Shown: positions 24,281 to 28,774 of the stretch, one piece after another
Numbering within the stretch: position 1 is the stretch's first letter
How the letters are laid out: each line of letters starts with the position of its first letter
Source: Hoeflea sp.
Lineage (GTDB): Bacteria > Pseudomonadota > Alphaproteobacteria > Rhizobiales > Rhizobiaceae
Assembly: GCF_030682515.1 (NCBI RefSeq)
Contig: NZ_JAUXOD010000135.1
Coordinates: 69,335-121,139 of the forward strand
Length of the DNA stretch: 51,805 nt
Direction of reading: 5' to 3'
The notes under the pieces: model-generated
What the model saw: the letters and a program-made list of their open reading frames with translations, nothing else
Told to the model about the DNA's origin: nothing
Database searches by the model: none
Position numbers and translations under genes: made by a program

Positions 24281-25330
24281 ATGATTTTCACCTCTGACAA
24301 CTGGGCTGGCGCCCATCCGGCGATCGCCGCCTCGCTGTCGGCCCATTCGACCGGCTTCGCGCCTGCCTATGGCGCGAGCGAGCTTGACCGCAAGGTCGAG
24401 GCGAAATTCAACGAGATCTTCGGCCGGGAGGTCGCGGTCTTCTTCGTGGGCACCGGTACGGCGGCCAATTCCCTGGCCCTCTCCGCGATCATGAAGCCGG
24501 GCGGCGTCTCGTTTTGCCACCGGGAGGCCCATGTGGTTGCCGATGAATGCGGCGCTCCGGAGTTTTTCAGCCATGGCTCCCGGCTGGTCCCTGTCGACGG
24601 CGCCGAAGGCAAGATGGATCCGGCCAGTCTGGAGAGAGAGATTGCGCGTTTTCCGCAAGGTTTTGTCCACGCCGGCCAGCCCATGGCGATTACCCTGACC
24701 CAGGCGACCGAGGCGGGTACCGTCTATACCGTCGAGGAAATCCGTGCCATATCGGCGATCGCAAAGGCGCATGGCCTGCCGCTGCACATGGATGGCGCGC
24801 GCTTCGCCAATGCGCTGGTTGCGCTCGATCTCACGCCTGCACAGATGACCCACGAGCTCGGTGTCGACATCGTCTCCTTCGGCGGCACCAAGAACGGCTG
24901 CTGGTGCGCCGAAGCGCTCGTGTTTCTCGATCCCGGCATGGCTACCGAGGCGCCTTACATCCGCAAGCGCGCCGCACAGCTGTTCTCCAAGAGCCGCTTC
25001 ATCGCCGCCCAGTTCGACGCCTATTTCGAAAATGGCCTTTGGCTTGACACAGCCCGCCACGCCAACGCGATGGCGGCCAGGCTGCAGGCTGCGATCGAGA
25101 CGTCCAGCCAGGCGCGGCTTGCATGGAAAAGCCCTGCCAACGAGACCTTTCCGATTGTGCCGAAATCTCTCGCCAAGGAGCTCTCGGCCAAGGGCGCGCT
25201 GTTTTACGAATGGTCGCCGCCGCGCTCCGCCGCCCATCTCGTGGGCGCGGATGAAACCATGCTGAGGCTGGTCACCAGCTTCGCCACCACGCAAGACCAA
25301 GTGGATCGGTTCTCGGAATTGCTGGCCTAG
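24281..25330 (+). CDS. ltaE: Low-specificity L-threonine aldolase
   Basis: 349 residues. A PLP-dependent fold-type I lyase that splits threonine or allo-threonine to glycine and acetaldehyde. The start MIFTSDNWAG with AHSTGFAPAYGAS, the HVVADECGAPEFFSHGSRL region, the HMDGARFANAL motif and the Schiff-base Lys204 in SFGGTKNGCWCAEA all match. The family is also annotated as beta-eliminating lyase, so the substrate preference is not certain. A modest GGAG lies ten bases before ATG 24281. Divergent from gltB, separated by the long intergenic region; glycine production would link to one-carbon metabolism but not directly to the neighbours. Confidence 0.9.
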   Translation: MIFTSDNWAGAHPAIAASLSAHSTGFAPAYGASELDRKVEAKFNEIFGREVAVFFVGTGTAANSLALSAIMKPGGVSFCHREAHVVADECGAPEFFSHGSRLVPVDGAEGKMDPASLEREIARFPQGFVHAGQPMAITLTQATEAGTVYTVEEIRAISAIAKAHGLPLHMDGARFANALVALDLTPAQMTHELGVDIVSFGGTKNGCWCAEALVFLDPGMATEAPYIRKRAAQLFSKSRFIAAQFDAYFENGLWLDTARHANAMAARLQAAIETSSQARLAWKSPANETFPIVPKSLAKELSAKGALFYEWSPPRSAAHLVGADETMLRLVTSFATTQDQVDRFSELLA

Positions 25331-25512
25331 CCCGCATCCGCTGCAACACCGCCAGTTTACTCAAGTGCAAACCCAATCACTCCGGCCTCACACGCAAGTG
25401 ATGTCCGATAACGTGCGCTTGATTTCCACGTGATGCGACAATTTGCCATGGTTCTCCTGCCGGGACGAACAAACCCGGGGAACAGTTTCAGGACATCTTC
25501 AAGGAGAACACC

Positions 25513-25818
25513 ATGTCGCAGAAAACGCTCATTGGCGCGTCGGCTCTCGCCGGCGCAGTCGCTATGGCCATCTCGGGGGCCACCTTCCTCGCATCGACTG
25601 ACACAGCATCCGCCGCCACTGAAAAATGCTACGGCGTCGCCCTGGCCGGACAGAACGATTGCGCCGCCGGCCCCGGCACCACATGCGCGGGATCGTCCAA
25701 GGTCGACTACCAGGGCAATGCCTGGAAGACCGTCGACGCCGGCACCTGCGTCACCATGAGCCTCGATGGCGGTCGCACCGGCTCGCTCGAGCCGCTCGAG
25801 CGCGATCTTCCCGCCTGA
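25513..25818 (+). CDS. bufA1: Bufferin precursor BufA1 (DUF2282)
   Basis: 101 residues. A Sec signal peptide (about 1-34, ending TASA) doubles as leader. The mature part has exactly four cysteines, Cys39, Cys50, Cys58 and Cys79, in [19 protein letters not shown] and AGTC, the signature of DUF2282 proteins. These are now known as bufferins: periplasmic peptides in which central cysteines are oxidised to thiooxazoles by a DUF692 enzyme and which bind copper. The next three genes (bufB, bufC, doxX) complete the known operon. CAAGGAGAACACC gives a strong ribosome-binding site for ATG 25513. Copper binding here is inferred from family and context. Confidence 0.9.
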
Positions 25819-25849
25819 TTTTCCACCATGATGAAACGGGAGTTGCGAA

Positions 25850-26770
25850 ATGACGCAGTCCGCCCCCAAGTCGCCAGCCGCAGATAATTCCCGTTTCCCG
25901 AACGCCCCGCTCCCGCCTCGCGCGGGGGCGGGACTGAAGCTCGCGCATGTCGACCAGATCCTCTCCGATGCCCACCGGATCGGCTTCCTCGAGGTCCATG
26001 CGGAAAATTTCATGGGCGCCGGCGGCCCGGCGCATCGCGCACTCGCGGCCATCCGCGCCCGGTTTCCGGTGTCCATCCATGGCGTCGGACTGTCGATCGG
26101 CTCGGAGAGCGGCATCGATCCGGCGCATCTCGAACGCCTGGCCGGTGTTGTCGAACGCTACGAACCGGCCATGGTGTCGGAGCATCTGGCCTGGTCGAGC
26201 CACGACGCCGGCTATTTCAACGATCTGTTGCCCGTCCCCTACACGACCCAGACGCTTGAACGGGTGGTTTCCCACATCGACCGTGTTCAGTCCCGGCTCA
26301 AGCGCCCGATCCTGCTCGAAAATCCGTCCACCTATGTGGCCTTCGAGCAGACCATGATGAGCGAGACGGACTTCATCCGCGAGATCGCCCTCAAGTCCGG
26401 GTGCGGGCTGCTCCTCGACGTCAACAATGTCTTTGTCTCCGCCGTCAATCACGGGTTCAAGCCGCTGCAGTATCTGCGCGAGTTTCCGCTGGAGCTGGTT
26501 GAGGAAATCCATCTCGCCGGCCATGCCGAGGATCTCGACGATGAGGGCGACGCTCTGCTGATCGATGCCCATGACCGTCCGGTCGCCGACGCCGTCTGGA
26601 AGCTCTACGAGATCGTCATCAGCCAGACCGGGCCGCTCCCGACGCTGATCGAATGGGACAATGACGTGCCCGACTGGCCGGTCTTGCGCCGGGAGGCTCA
26701 ACTGGCCGACGCCATTCTCGATCGCCTTGGCCCCGCCTCCCTGCTTGGATCCCGTCATGCCGCCGAGTGA
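25850..26770 (+). CDS. bufB: Multinuclear non-heme iron oxidase BufB (MNIO, DUF692)
   Basis: 306 residues. A TIM-barrel DUF692 protein; the family oxidises peptide cysteines using clustered iron ions. Likely metal ligands are all present: Glu48/His50/Glu52 in EVHAENF, His77 in SIHGVG, His112 in SEHLAWS, Glu157-Asn158 in LENPSTY, Asp190-Asn192 in LDVNNVFVSAVNHG, His221/His225 in HLAGH, Asp239/His241 in IDAHDRP and Glu268 in LIEWD. By analogy it modifies the central cysteines of BufA1 in the cytoplasm before export. It lies 31 bases after bufA1 and overlaps bufC by 14 bases, a tight operon. The N-terminal 20 residues are a variable extension. Confidence 0.93.
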   Translation: MTQSAPKSPAADNSRFPNAPLPPRAGAGLKLAHVDQILSDAHRIGFLEVHAENFMGAGGPAHRALAAIRARFPVSIHGVGLSIGSESGIDPAHLERLAGVVERYEPAMVSEHLAWSSHDAGYFNDLLPVPYTTQTLERVVSHIDRVQSRLKRPILLENPSTYVAFEQTMMSETDFIREIALKSGCGLLLDVNNVFVSAVNHGFKPLQYLREFPLELVEEIHLAGHAEDLDDEGDALLIDAHDRPVADAVWKLYEIVISQTGPLPTLIEWDNDVPDWPVLRREAQLADAILDRLGPASLLGSRHAAE

Positions 26771-27560
26771 TCCCGCGCGCGGCGCGCGCCAGGCTGATTT
26801 CGTCGCGGCCCTGCTCGATCCGGACTTGCCCGTGCCCGAGGGCGTGGTGGGTCCAGGCGGCAAGCTGGCGCTGAAACGCTTCGCGGTCTACCGCAACAAT
26901 GTCACCATTGGCCTGGTCGACGCGCTCGCCGATATATTTCCCGCCGTGCAGCGGCTCGTGGGCAAGGATTTTTTTCGCACGATGGCGCGGCTCTACCTCG
27001 CCCAGGAGCCGCCCGCTTCGCCGGTGCTGAGCGAATATGGCGGCGGCTTCGCGGGTTTTCTCGACAGTTTCGAACCGCTGGCGCGATTTCCCTACCTGTC
27101 CGATGTCGCACGGCTTGAAAGGGCATGGCTCGATGCGTTTCACGCAGCCGACGCCGGGCCGCTGTCCCCCGAAGCCCTGGGGGCCATCCCGCCGGAGCAC
27201 TTGGGCGACGTCACATTCATCGTGCATCCGGCCACATACGTGCTCAAGAGCCGGTTCGCCGCCGTCTCCATCTTTTCAGCCAGTCGACAGGACCAGCCGC
27301 TGGACGGCATCAGGCCGCTTGATGCGGAAGACGCGCTGATCACGCGGCCGGACTTCGAGGTTCAGATCAGGTCCTTGCCGCCCGGCGCCGCGGATTTTTT
27401 CCAGGCGCTGATGGACGGGGACACTCTGGCGGGAGCCGCATCCCTCGCCCTCGAGCATCACCCGGGTTTCGATTTGCCATCGGCGATCTCGGCCCTGCTT
27501 GAATCCGGGGTCTTTTCAGCCTGTTCATCCAGCCAGACCATGACGGAGCACCTGCCATGA
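26757..27560 (+). CDS. bufC: BufC, DUF2063 partner of the DUF692 oxidase
   Basis: 267 residues. The N-terminal domain (about 10-100) has the DUF2063 signature RFAVYRNNVTIGLVDALADIF and VGKDFFRTMARLYL; the C-terminal part (about 150-250) matches the RiPP-recognition-like region of BufC/HvfC proteins. The partner protein is needed to present the precursor peptide to the MNIO enzyme. ATG 26757 lies inside the end of bufB, so the two are translationally coupled; the stop overlaps the doxX start by 4 bases (ATGA). There is no membrane segment. It is weakly conserved in sequence, as usual for this family. Confidence 0.88.
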   Translation: MPPSDPARGARQADFVAALLDPDLPVPEGVVGPGGKLALKRFAVYRNNVTIGLVDALADIFPAVQRLVGKDFFRTMARLYLAQEPPASPVLSEYGGGFAGFLDSFEPLARFPYLSDVARLERAWLDAFHAADAGPLSPEALGAIPPEHLGDVTFIVHPATYVLKSRFAAVSIFSASRQDQPLDGIRPLDAEDALITRPDFEVQIRSLPPGAADFFQALMDGDTLAGAASLALEHHPGFDLPSAISALLESGVFSACSSSQTMTEHLP

Positions 27561-28135
27561 CATCCGCAATCAACCGCCTTACCGGGTTTCACCAGCGTGT
27601 CTTTTCATCTGTCGAACGGATCGGCGACGCATGGCTGCTCGGGCTCATCGCGCGTTTCACCTTCGCAGCCGTCTTGTTGATCTATTTTCTCAATTCCGCC
27701 AACACCAAGGTCGGCGACGGGATAGCAGGATTCTTTTCGATTTCGCCCGGAGCCTATTATCAGATCGCCCTGCCGGCGGTCGAAGCCGCGGGCGGCGATG
27801 TCAATGCTGTCTCGTTCTTCCCCTGGGGACTGATCGTCGTCATGGGCACCTACGCCGAGTTCATCCTGCCGCTGTTGATCGTCATCGGTCTGTTTTCCCG
27901 GATCGCCGCGCTCGGCATGATCGGCTTCATCGCCGTGCAGACCTTCGTCGACATCACGGTTCACAAGATTGGCGCCGAGGCCACCGGCGCCTGGTTTGAC
28001 CGTTTCCCCGATGCGGTGATCGCCGACCAGCGCCTGCTCTGGCTCATGCCGCTGATCGTCCTGGCGATCAAGGGACCGGGGCTTCTCTCCGTGGACAGCC
28101 TCGTGGGGAAAATGTTGCCCCAGGCTCGCGCCTGA
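27557..28135 (+). CDS. DoxX family membrane protein of the bufferin operon
   Basis: 192 residues with four predicted membrane helices: about 25-45 (ARFTFAAVLLIYFLNSA), 85-110 (GLIVVMGTYAEFILPLLIVIG), 114-130 (IAALGMIGFIAVQTFVDI) and 155-172 (LLWLMPLIVLAIKG). DoxX proteins are frequent fourth members of DUF2282-DUF692-DUF2063 operons; their job there is not established, with a redox or quinone role suggested. The start overlaps the bufC stop. The next gene is convergent, and a strong hairpin separates them. Confidence 0.88.
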   Translation: MTSAINRLTGFHQRVFSSVERIGDAWLLGLIARFTFAAVLLIYFLNSANTKVGDGIAGFFSISPGAYYQIALPAVEAAGGDVNAVSFFPWGLIVVMGTYAEFILPLLIVIGLFSRIAALGMIGFIAVQTFVDITVHKIGAEATGAWFDRFPDAVIADQRLLWLMPLIVLAIKGPGLLSVDSLVGKMLPQARA

Positions 28136-28150
28136 CCGGCAAGTCCTCAA

Positions 28151-28180
28151 TAAAAATGGCGCCCAGTCTCCTGGGCGCCA
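28151..28180 (-). terminator. Terminator of the Hsp20 gene, possibly bidirectional
   Basis: A perfect 10-bp stem TGGCGCCCAG (28157-28166) / CTGGGCGCCA (28171-28180), loop TCTC. On the minus strand it is followed by a T-run (AAAAA at 28152-28156 on the plus strand), a classical terminator for the Hsp20 gene. On the plus strand, 21 bases after doxX, it lacks the T-run but may still stop the bufferin transcript. Confidence 0.88.
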
Positions 28181-28209
28181 CAAAGCCTTCTCCGCTTGGG
28201 GGGATGGGA

Positions 28210-28674
28210 TCAGGCCTTTGTTGCTTCGATCTGCTTGGGCTTGCCGGCGTCGCTGGAAATGGCGATGCGGCGCGGCTTCATGGCTTCGGGAAGCTCGCGG
28301 ACCAGATCGACATGCAGAAGACCGTTGCGCAGCGATGCGCCGGTGACCTCGACATGATCGGCCAGCTGGAAGCGACGCTCGAAAGCGCGCTTGGCAATGC
28401 CGCGATAGAGGAATTCCGAACCTTCGGACCCCTGTTCGTCGGCCTTCTCGCCCTTGACGGTCAGCACATGTTCGCGCGCTTCGATGGAAATCTCGGTTTC
28501 CGCGAAGCCGGCCACGGCCATGGTGATGCGATAGGTGTTATCGCCGGTGCGTTCGATGTTGTAGGGCGGGTAGGACTGGGCCTGTTCGGTCGGCGCAAGG
28601 CTGTCGAGCATGGTCAGCAACTTGTCGAAACCGACGGTGGAACGGTAGAGGGGGGAAAAATCAACGTGACGCAT
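28210..28674 (-). CDS. Small heat-shock protein, Hsp20 family
   Basis: 154 residues. The N-terminus MRHVDFSPLYRSTVGFDKLL and the alpha-crystallin domain (about 35-130: NIERTGDNTYRITMAVAGF, ending near GLLHVDLVREL) are those of class A rhizobial sHsps (IbpA/HspB type). It is an ATP-independent chaperone that holds unfolding proteins in the cytoplasm. The true start is ATG 28674, 6 bases after AAGGAGG; longer open frames up to 29001 run through the leader RNA. Expression is probably controlled twice, by a heat-shock sigma promoter and a ROSE RNA thermometer, both listed. Confidence 0.95.
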   Translation of the reverse strand: MRHVDFSPLYRSTVGFDKLLTMLDSLAPTEQAQSYPPYNIERTGDNTYRITMAVAGFAETEISIEAREHVLTVKGEKADEQGSEGSEFLYRGIAKRAFERRFQLADHVEVTGASLRNGLLHVDLVRELPEAMKPRRIAISSDAGKPKQIEATKA

Positions 28675-28774
28675 TTGTGTCCTCCTTAAGAGCAACATTG
28701 GTTTGGCGTTTTGGCTGTGGTCTGCCCCGCATTGGGCGGCATCCCGGCCAGCAGGCCCGGTAACCGGCGCCTGC
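28675..28774 (-). ncRNA. ROSE-type RNA thermometer in the Hsp20 leader
   Basis: The roughly 100-base leader ends in TTGCTCTTAAGGAGGACACAA before the ATG. The TTGCT (minus strand, opposite 28690-28695) next to the GGAGG (28681-28685) is the ROSE hallmark: the U(U/C)GCU motif pairs with the ribosome-binding site at low temperature and melts on heating. GC-rich hairpins upstream (CCGC/GCGG near 28730-28745) fit the remaining ROSE stems. ROSE elements are known before rhizobial sHsp genes. The exact fold was not computed. Confidence 0.78.

Follow-up and report, generated by a model that had tools for sequence, protein, structure and literature searches.

A probable Buf1-type bufferin operon in Hoeflea sp. 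with a ladder of CenR-like half-sites upstream of bufA

The stretch of Hoeflea sp. DNA analyzed here (51,805 nucleotides, hereafter the window) contains a four-gene operon, bufA1-bufB-bufC-doxX, at positions 25513-28135 of the plus strand, which raises the question of whether it makes a copper-binding bufferin of the Buf1 type and, if so, what drives its transcription. In Caulobacter vibrioides, the buf1 operon (CC3254-3257 = CCNA_03363-03366) has the same DUF2282-DUF692-DUF2063-DoxX order (PMC3511200, PMC8224329) and is reported to be transcribed by sigmaF from the element GTAACC-N16-CGAA, with NrsF as the anti-sigma factor (PMC3511200), whereas Hoeflea sp. has no NrsF gene and carries a ladder of TCAC and GTGA half-sites. 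The present analysis indicates that the operon is very probably a Buf1-type bufferin operon with the corresponding function. As such it is ordinary, all its features being known and the strain being one more member. The ladder points to the envelope-stress regulator CenR as a candidate regulator of the promoter.

The four genes were assigned by profile searches. The bufA1 gene (25513-25818) encodes the bufferin precursor of 101 aa, which matches DUF2282 with 83.8 bits (cut-off 22.4). It is preceded by the ribosome-binding site AAGGAG (25501-25506), which is conserved in the upstream alignment. The bufB gene (25850-26770) encodes the MNIO maturase of 306 aa, with 344.8 bits to the Pfam family MbnB_TglH_ChrH (cut-off 25) and 376.8 bits to the NCBIfam model MNIO_BufB (cut-off 310). 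The bufC gene (26757-27560) encodes the DUF2063 partner protein (PME type 1; 91.2 bits, cut-off 27.2), whose 267 aa are close to the 250-260 aa reported for PME type 1 partners (PMC12452194), and doxX (27557-28135) encodes a membrane protein of 192 aa. All four lie on the plus strand, bufA and bufB separated by a gap of 31 bases, bufB and bufC overlapping by 14 bases and bufC and doxX by 4. A sequence-only reading of the window had described a complete operon with exactly this precursor length, gap and overlaps, and the open reading frames bear it out; the profile check that it had proposed, with DUF2282, DUF692 and DUF2063, places all three proteins above the Pfam cut-offs. Two scores speak against the assignment: DoxX, with 24.2 bits, is barely above its Pfam cut-off of 23.6, and in NCBIfam BufA reaches only the BufA2 model, below threshold (20.4, cut-off 60). 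In the same NCBIfam search BufC stays below the HvfC cut-off (35 against 142) and the DoxX protein has no match. A PDB search with BufA returned no match at E 0.1, and an Rfam search of 25300-28300 no RNA element at the gathering score. Genome-wide, Hoeflea sp. has a single MNIO gene and a single DUF2282 gene.

The arrangement was followed among relatives by scanning genome contigs for BufB, which gave 429 confirmed places; the best 80 were kept as named loci, the 40 best-ranked as L023-L062 and the lower-ranked as L063-L102, and their genes were mapped by tblastn. The genus is Hoeflea as judged by the nearest named relatives, and BufB is present in 18 of 18 Hoeflea genomes, the source genome included. 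Among the 80 loci, bufA was found in 79, bufB and bufC in all 80, and a DoxX homologue in 66, with the order A-B-C in each of the 79 loci that have all three genes. Because of this order, and because Cys39, Cys50, Cys58 and Cys79 of the precursor are unchanged in 83 of 83 aligned BufA, the bufA-bufB-bufC arrangement is not due to chance. The surroundings of the operon are kept as well in L023-L061 (aldolase-like gene 38/39, HSP20 38/39, hydrolase 35/39, DoxX 39/39), which points to a bufferin locus inherited vertically in this family.

The four cysteines, which the sequence-only reading had placed at the same positions, are encoded at 25627-29 (C39), 25660-62 (C50), 25684-86 (C58) and 25747-49 (C79) on the plus strand, spanning 25627-25749. 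By homology to Buf1, in which the central cysteines are reported to be modified and the outer two disulfide-bonded (PMC12452194), C50 and C58 are the expected thiooxazole sites and C39-C79 the expected disulfide. Residues 1 to about 35 of BufA have, by eye, the appearance of a Sec-type signal, with a positive start, a long hydrophobic stretch and an Ala-rich cut site. In BufB, the site-3 ligands N193, D239 and H241 are kept in 80 of 80 aligned proteins. Six other residues, H77, H112, E157, D190, H221 and E268, which we take to be further candidate ligands, are kept in at least 79 of 80, which agrees with the claim of the sequence-only reading that the DUF692 protein has all likely iron ligands. 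Via PDB 3bww, in which the last two are offset by one, N193, D239 and H241 align with N175, D242 and H244 of HvfB, reported from mutation to be required for activity (PMC13419390).

By homology to these systems, BufA would be synthesized with its Sec signal and held in the cytoplasm by BufC while BufB oxidizes Cys50 and Cys58 to thiooxazoles. The modified BufA would then be exported by Sec, its signal cut off and the Cys39-Cys79 disulfide closed, and the mature peptide would bind excess copper in the periplasm, DoxX acting as a membrane partner. The modification of Cys50 and Cys58 and the periplasmic copper binding, both suggested by the sequence-only reading, find support in the family assignment and in published Buf1 work (PMC12452194), and the copper function in Hoeflea sp. 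is proposed by homology. That reading also considered the Sec leader and the DoxX protein unusual, and here it was mistaken: according to the bufferin survey, which rules out both as oddities among bufferins, the precursors carry Sec signals as a rule, though such leaders are rare among ribosomally synthesized and post-translationally modified peptides overall, and doxX belongs, with the genes of the precursor, the MNIO and the DUF2063 protein, to the core set of four (PMC12452194). In treating the role of DoxX as an open matter, it agrees with PMC12452194 and with PMC13097082, where the DoxX part is left open. The latter proposes a wider class, the captophorins, of copper-associated peptides with thiooxazoles that an MNIO and a DUF2063 partner produce (bufferins, oxazolin, fontiphorin, gonophorin, bulbicupramide); it covers DUF2282 precursors and hence the Hoeflea operon too (PMC13097082). 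Fontiphorin differs in having seven thiooxazoles, against two expected in Hoeflea BufA.

An operon of this kind could also serve another metal or an oxidant, such as gold, chromate or cadmium, with copper incidental. Caulobacter buf1 is copper-induced and disruption of sigF leaves the cells copper-sensitive (PMC8224329), and the Buf1 peptide is a copper chelator according to its authors (PMC12452194), both of which argue against such a role; it would accord with the reported responses of homologous operons to gold, silver, chromate and cadmium (PMC8224329, PMC3511200) and with the MerC fusions and other likely metals noted in PMC12452194. In Cupriavidus metallidurans and Legionella, which are not Alphaproteobacteria, the gig operons, counted there as bufferin clusters (PMC12452194), respond to gold and copper (PMC8224329, PMC5413113), the Legionella operon not to silver (PMC5413113). 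We consider a main function other than copper quite improbable. That the precursor stays unmodified, as a plain four-cysteine periplasmic protein, is hardly credible, with intact bufB and bufC adjoining bufA and the iron-site residues kept.

The question of transcription was approached through the upstream regions. Alignment of those of 17 Hoeflea loci shows a block of nearly invariant bases before bufA, which contains a ladder of six half-sites at 25377-25433: TCAC at 25377, TCAC at 25388, GTGA at 25398, TAAC at 25409, TTGA at 25419 and GTGA at 25430. The steps are 11, 10, 11, 10 and 11 bases, and the half-sites, in this order, are kept in 17, 17, 16, 17, 17 and 14 of the 17 promoters. Within the ladder, two CenR-like sites can be read on the plus strand, an upstream one, TCACACGCAAGTGAT (TCAC-N6-GTGA, 25388-25402), and a proximal one, TAACGTGCGCTTGAT (25409-25423). 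From the alignment, a promoter is suggested directly downstream at 25424-25452 of the plus strand, with the -35 element TTCCAC (25424-25429), a 17-base spacer and the -10 element CATGGT (25447-25452), and transcription of bufA is suggested to start near 25459. Another candidate for the -35 element, TTGATTT, was dropped; it fits better into the proximal site, of which it would form the second arm.

Sites of this form are known from the CenK-CenR regulon. In Sinorhizobium meliloti, CenR is reported to bind AGTCAC-NNCNNN-GTGACT beside the -35 element (PMC9561847), and 31 CenR sites have been published for Rhodobacter sphaeroides, described by the authors as TGA-N8-TGA (PMC9275681). When aligned, the latter mostly read T(C/G)(A/G)C-N6-GTGA, the same form of site, beside a -35 element, as is seen here next to the suggested promoter. 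A matrix trained solely on the 31 Rhodobacter sites (median 11.1 on its own training set) gives 11.9 for the upstream and 9.2 for the proximal Hoeflea site. Over the 200 bases upstream of bufA, the mean best score in 37 representatives, which come from clustering at 75% BufB identity around a single query and are therefore not independent, is 10.96, compared with 6.49 for shuffled sequences (standard deviation 0.38, maximum 7.62 in 60 shuffles). Scores of 10 or more are seen in 28 of the 37, against 6.1% of 555 random windows. These windows are mostly coding DNA, an objection that the shuffles and the neighbor promoters alone answer; among the representatives, the latter reach 10 in 0/12 (aldolase), 1/11 (HSP20) and 0/10 (hydrolase) cases. 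Over all loci the counts are 58/85 for bufA against 2/41, 3/39 and 2/36 for the same neighbors. The best CenR score of the whole window (12.6) lies at 28667-28681, where the HSP20 gene begins, and not before bufA; as a group, the HSP20 promoters of relatives give the low count just stated.

The spacing between half-sites was also scanned, over all spacings, although after the CenR site descriptions and the alignment pattern were known, so that the scan was not blind. The top peak is at k=6 for TCAC-Nk-GTGA (31/83 loci and 8/37 representatives, against a mean of 0.125 and a maximum of 2 in shuffles) and at k=7 for the direct repeat (32/83 and 8/37; shuffles 0.235, maximum 2). Lesser peaks are found for the inverted form at k=16-17 (6 and 21 of 83) and the direct form at k=28 (19/83), which are one and two turns of the helix further, and for the direct form at k=6 (7/83 loci, 6/37 representatives).

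A second set came from 240 sampled genomes of the class, 84 of them with DUF2282. Of 100 listed matches, 90 were taken, leaving out the source locus and nine others, eight of them the weakest; 82 gave a usable start, with start codons picked by rule, and 200 upstream bases. None of the 90 is near-identical to a locus of the first set (90% over 400 bases), and there are six near-duplicate pairs within the set. In it, 38 of the 82 promoters score at least 10, compared with 2.6% of 492 windows from the same loci, again mostly coding DNA, and the leading spacings are again TCAC-N6-GTGA (13/82, next 2) and the direct repeat at k=7 (10/82, next 5 at k=8). Matrices with permuted columns separated either set as well in 0 of 500 cases.

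Elsewhere in the Hoeflea sp. genome, TCAC-N6-GTGA occurs 37 times, compared with 8 for the reversed pattern. Some of the sites precede genes that would fit into an envelope-stress regulon, namely rpoH (16.0), dsbD (13.9), a DUF882/M15 peptidase gene (12.6) and a DsbA-like lipoprotein gene (12.7 and 13.0); the CenR targets listed for Rhodobacter include rpoH1 and dsbC (PMC9275681). The site before dsbD and the likely ribosome-binding site of the neighboring regulator overlap, and the rpoH site is inside a long hairpin, so both may have another reason. Sites are also found before genes without an envelope link (acetyltransferase, solute-binding protein, chemotaxis receptor), and 12 of the 15 occurrences in L104-L118 are inside reading frames 100 aa or more in length. 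The exact pattern TCAC-N7-TCAC-N6-GTGATG has one match genome-wide, and therefore no regulon can be derived from it. As for the regulator, the genome has 11 Trans_reg_C matches. NCBIfam models, applied to ten of the eleven, place CtrA and PhoB above cut-off, with no CenR model among the matches listed; another of the eleven we take to be ChvI. An OmpR-type regulator, L157 (G000:C3, about 7.2 kb), has an Asp at position 55, as is reported for CenR of S. meliloti and Brucella, and is a candidate CenR by position and elimination only. The text of the Brucella CenR paper contains neither "motif" nor "consensus".

A number of observations weigh against CenR as the regulator. In the second set, 44 of 82 bufA promoters score below 10, and the CenR-like site is therefore not universal; in the first, 8 of 9 Rhizobium loci (the L044 group, which keeps TTGATTT) are below 9. 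In the Hoeflea sp. genome there is no good CenR-like site at tolQ (5.2), a known CenR target, or at ybgC (7.5), and near tolQ neither TGA-N8-TGA nor TCAC-N6-GTGA is present. The promoter of the candidate cenR gene scores only 8.3. An SrlA-like DUF1223 gene (2AXO/SrlA being, as we assume, a member of that family) scores 6.8 over only 54 upstream bases.

The other explanations of bufA transcription are a sigmaF-type extracytoplasmic-function (ECF) sigma factor encoded elsewhere, as published for Caulobacter buf1 (PMC3511200), and some other OmpR-type regulator in place of CenR. As regards the sigma factor, NrsF has no match in the Hoeflea sp. genome (98.9% complete, 144 contigs; Caulobacter control positive), a search that covered NrsF and not ECF sigma genes. 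Among 79 genomes of the 80 named loci, NrsF is above cut-off in 0/40 for L023-L062, with three sub-threshold matches, against 28/39 for L063-L102, and the relaxed pattern GTAAC-N16-18-CG[AT][AT] occurs within 240 bases upstream of bufA in 0/41 (L003 and L023-L062) against 18/37 of L063-L102. With neither NrsF nor a sigmaF-type pattern at hand, sigmaF control of Hoeflea sp. bufA was rejected as most improbable. In the second set, a CenR score of at least 10 is found in 9 of 24 promoters with the sigmaF-type pattern and in 29 of 58 without. A different OmpR-type regulator, for example PhoB or the heavy-metal-like L151, is a more serious rival, given the eleven Trans_reg_C matches: L151 reaches 231 bits with the cztR_silR_copR model, whose cut-off is 279, and the CenR matrix gives 12.4 for the L151 promoter. 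On the other hand, a matrix from CenR sites alone transfers to bufA promoters, and the half-sites stand at this spacing in the CenR site of S. meliloti too (PMC9561847). ChvI as the reader of the ladder was rejected, since its reported sites, GCC-N8-GCC or TTGC-N3-GCAA (PMC9731502), do not fit; the ChvI screen paper gives its consensus as unconfirmed. We regard a regulator other than CenR as unlikely, though well short of negligible. The motifs thus suggest that transcription would depend not on sigmaF/NrsF but on an OmpR-type regulator, most likely CenR, on the ladder just upstream of the promoter; that CenR in fact controls bufferin production here is a prediction with about equal chances of being right or wrong.

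Some further features of the loci may be mentioned here. L151 and L153 (G000:C48), both OmpR-type regulators, are separated by about 10 kb, the CenR-like site noted above being upstream of L151. In three Bradyrhizobium loci from NrsF genomes (L079, L083, L090), a near-perfect TCAC-N6-GTGA (15.3-15.9) is situated about 34 bases upstream of a GTAAC element before bufA, and a single promoter may there be subject to both types of control. The DoxX proteins encoded after bufC are of two kinds: a window-like one is found in 39/39 of L023-L061 (52-83% identity) and in 8/11 more distant genomes without NrsF (46-57%), while in 26/28 NrsF genomes, L101 and L102 being the exceptions, DoxX is distant (27-33%) or not found. 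In L077, L078, L089, L091, L093 and L097, what looks like the tail of another DUF2282-like frame directly precedes bufA, which suggests tandem precursor genes in these operons. In the interval between doxX and the HSP20 gene of the window, a hairpin GGCGCCCAG-TCTC-CTGGGCGCC, accompanied by a run of T on the minus strand, was read by eye at 28160-28181; it is likely the terminator of the HSP20 gene.

As an operon, the locus adds one more Buf1 case to the thousands already collected (PMC12452194), a survey that reports DUF2282 genes in 4072 complete genomes out of a total above 40,000. Regulation by CenR is the part that we did not find in print and that may be new: no report joining CenR with bufferin, DUF692, DUF2282 or gold-induced genes was found among the papers listed from the open-licence literature, no bufferin gene is among the Rhodobacter CenR targets in Table 1 of PMC9275681, and DUF692, DoxX and DUF2282 are absent from its main text. 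The promoter result provides a named candidate regulator and exact bases for bufferin operons that lack sigmaF/NrsF. It is an even call whether, in many Alphaproteobacteria, the bufferin forms a branch of the CenK-CenR envelope-stress response, CenR having replaced sigmaF/NrsF altogether in Hoeflea and its Rhizobiaceae relatives and both acting jointly in others, such as the three Bradyrhizobium loci. If this is true, the peptide would be made on envelope damage, beside disulfide-repair, cell-wall and heat-shock genes, and not on copper alone. Copper sequestration would then be tied to envelope stress, and the CenR regulon could widen by a gene, that of the DUF2282 precursor, present in 84 of the 240 sampled members of the class.

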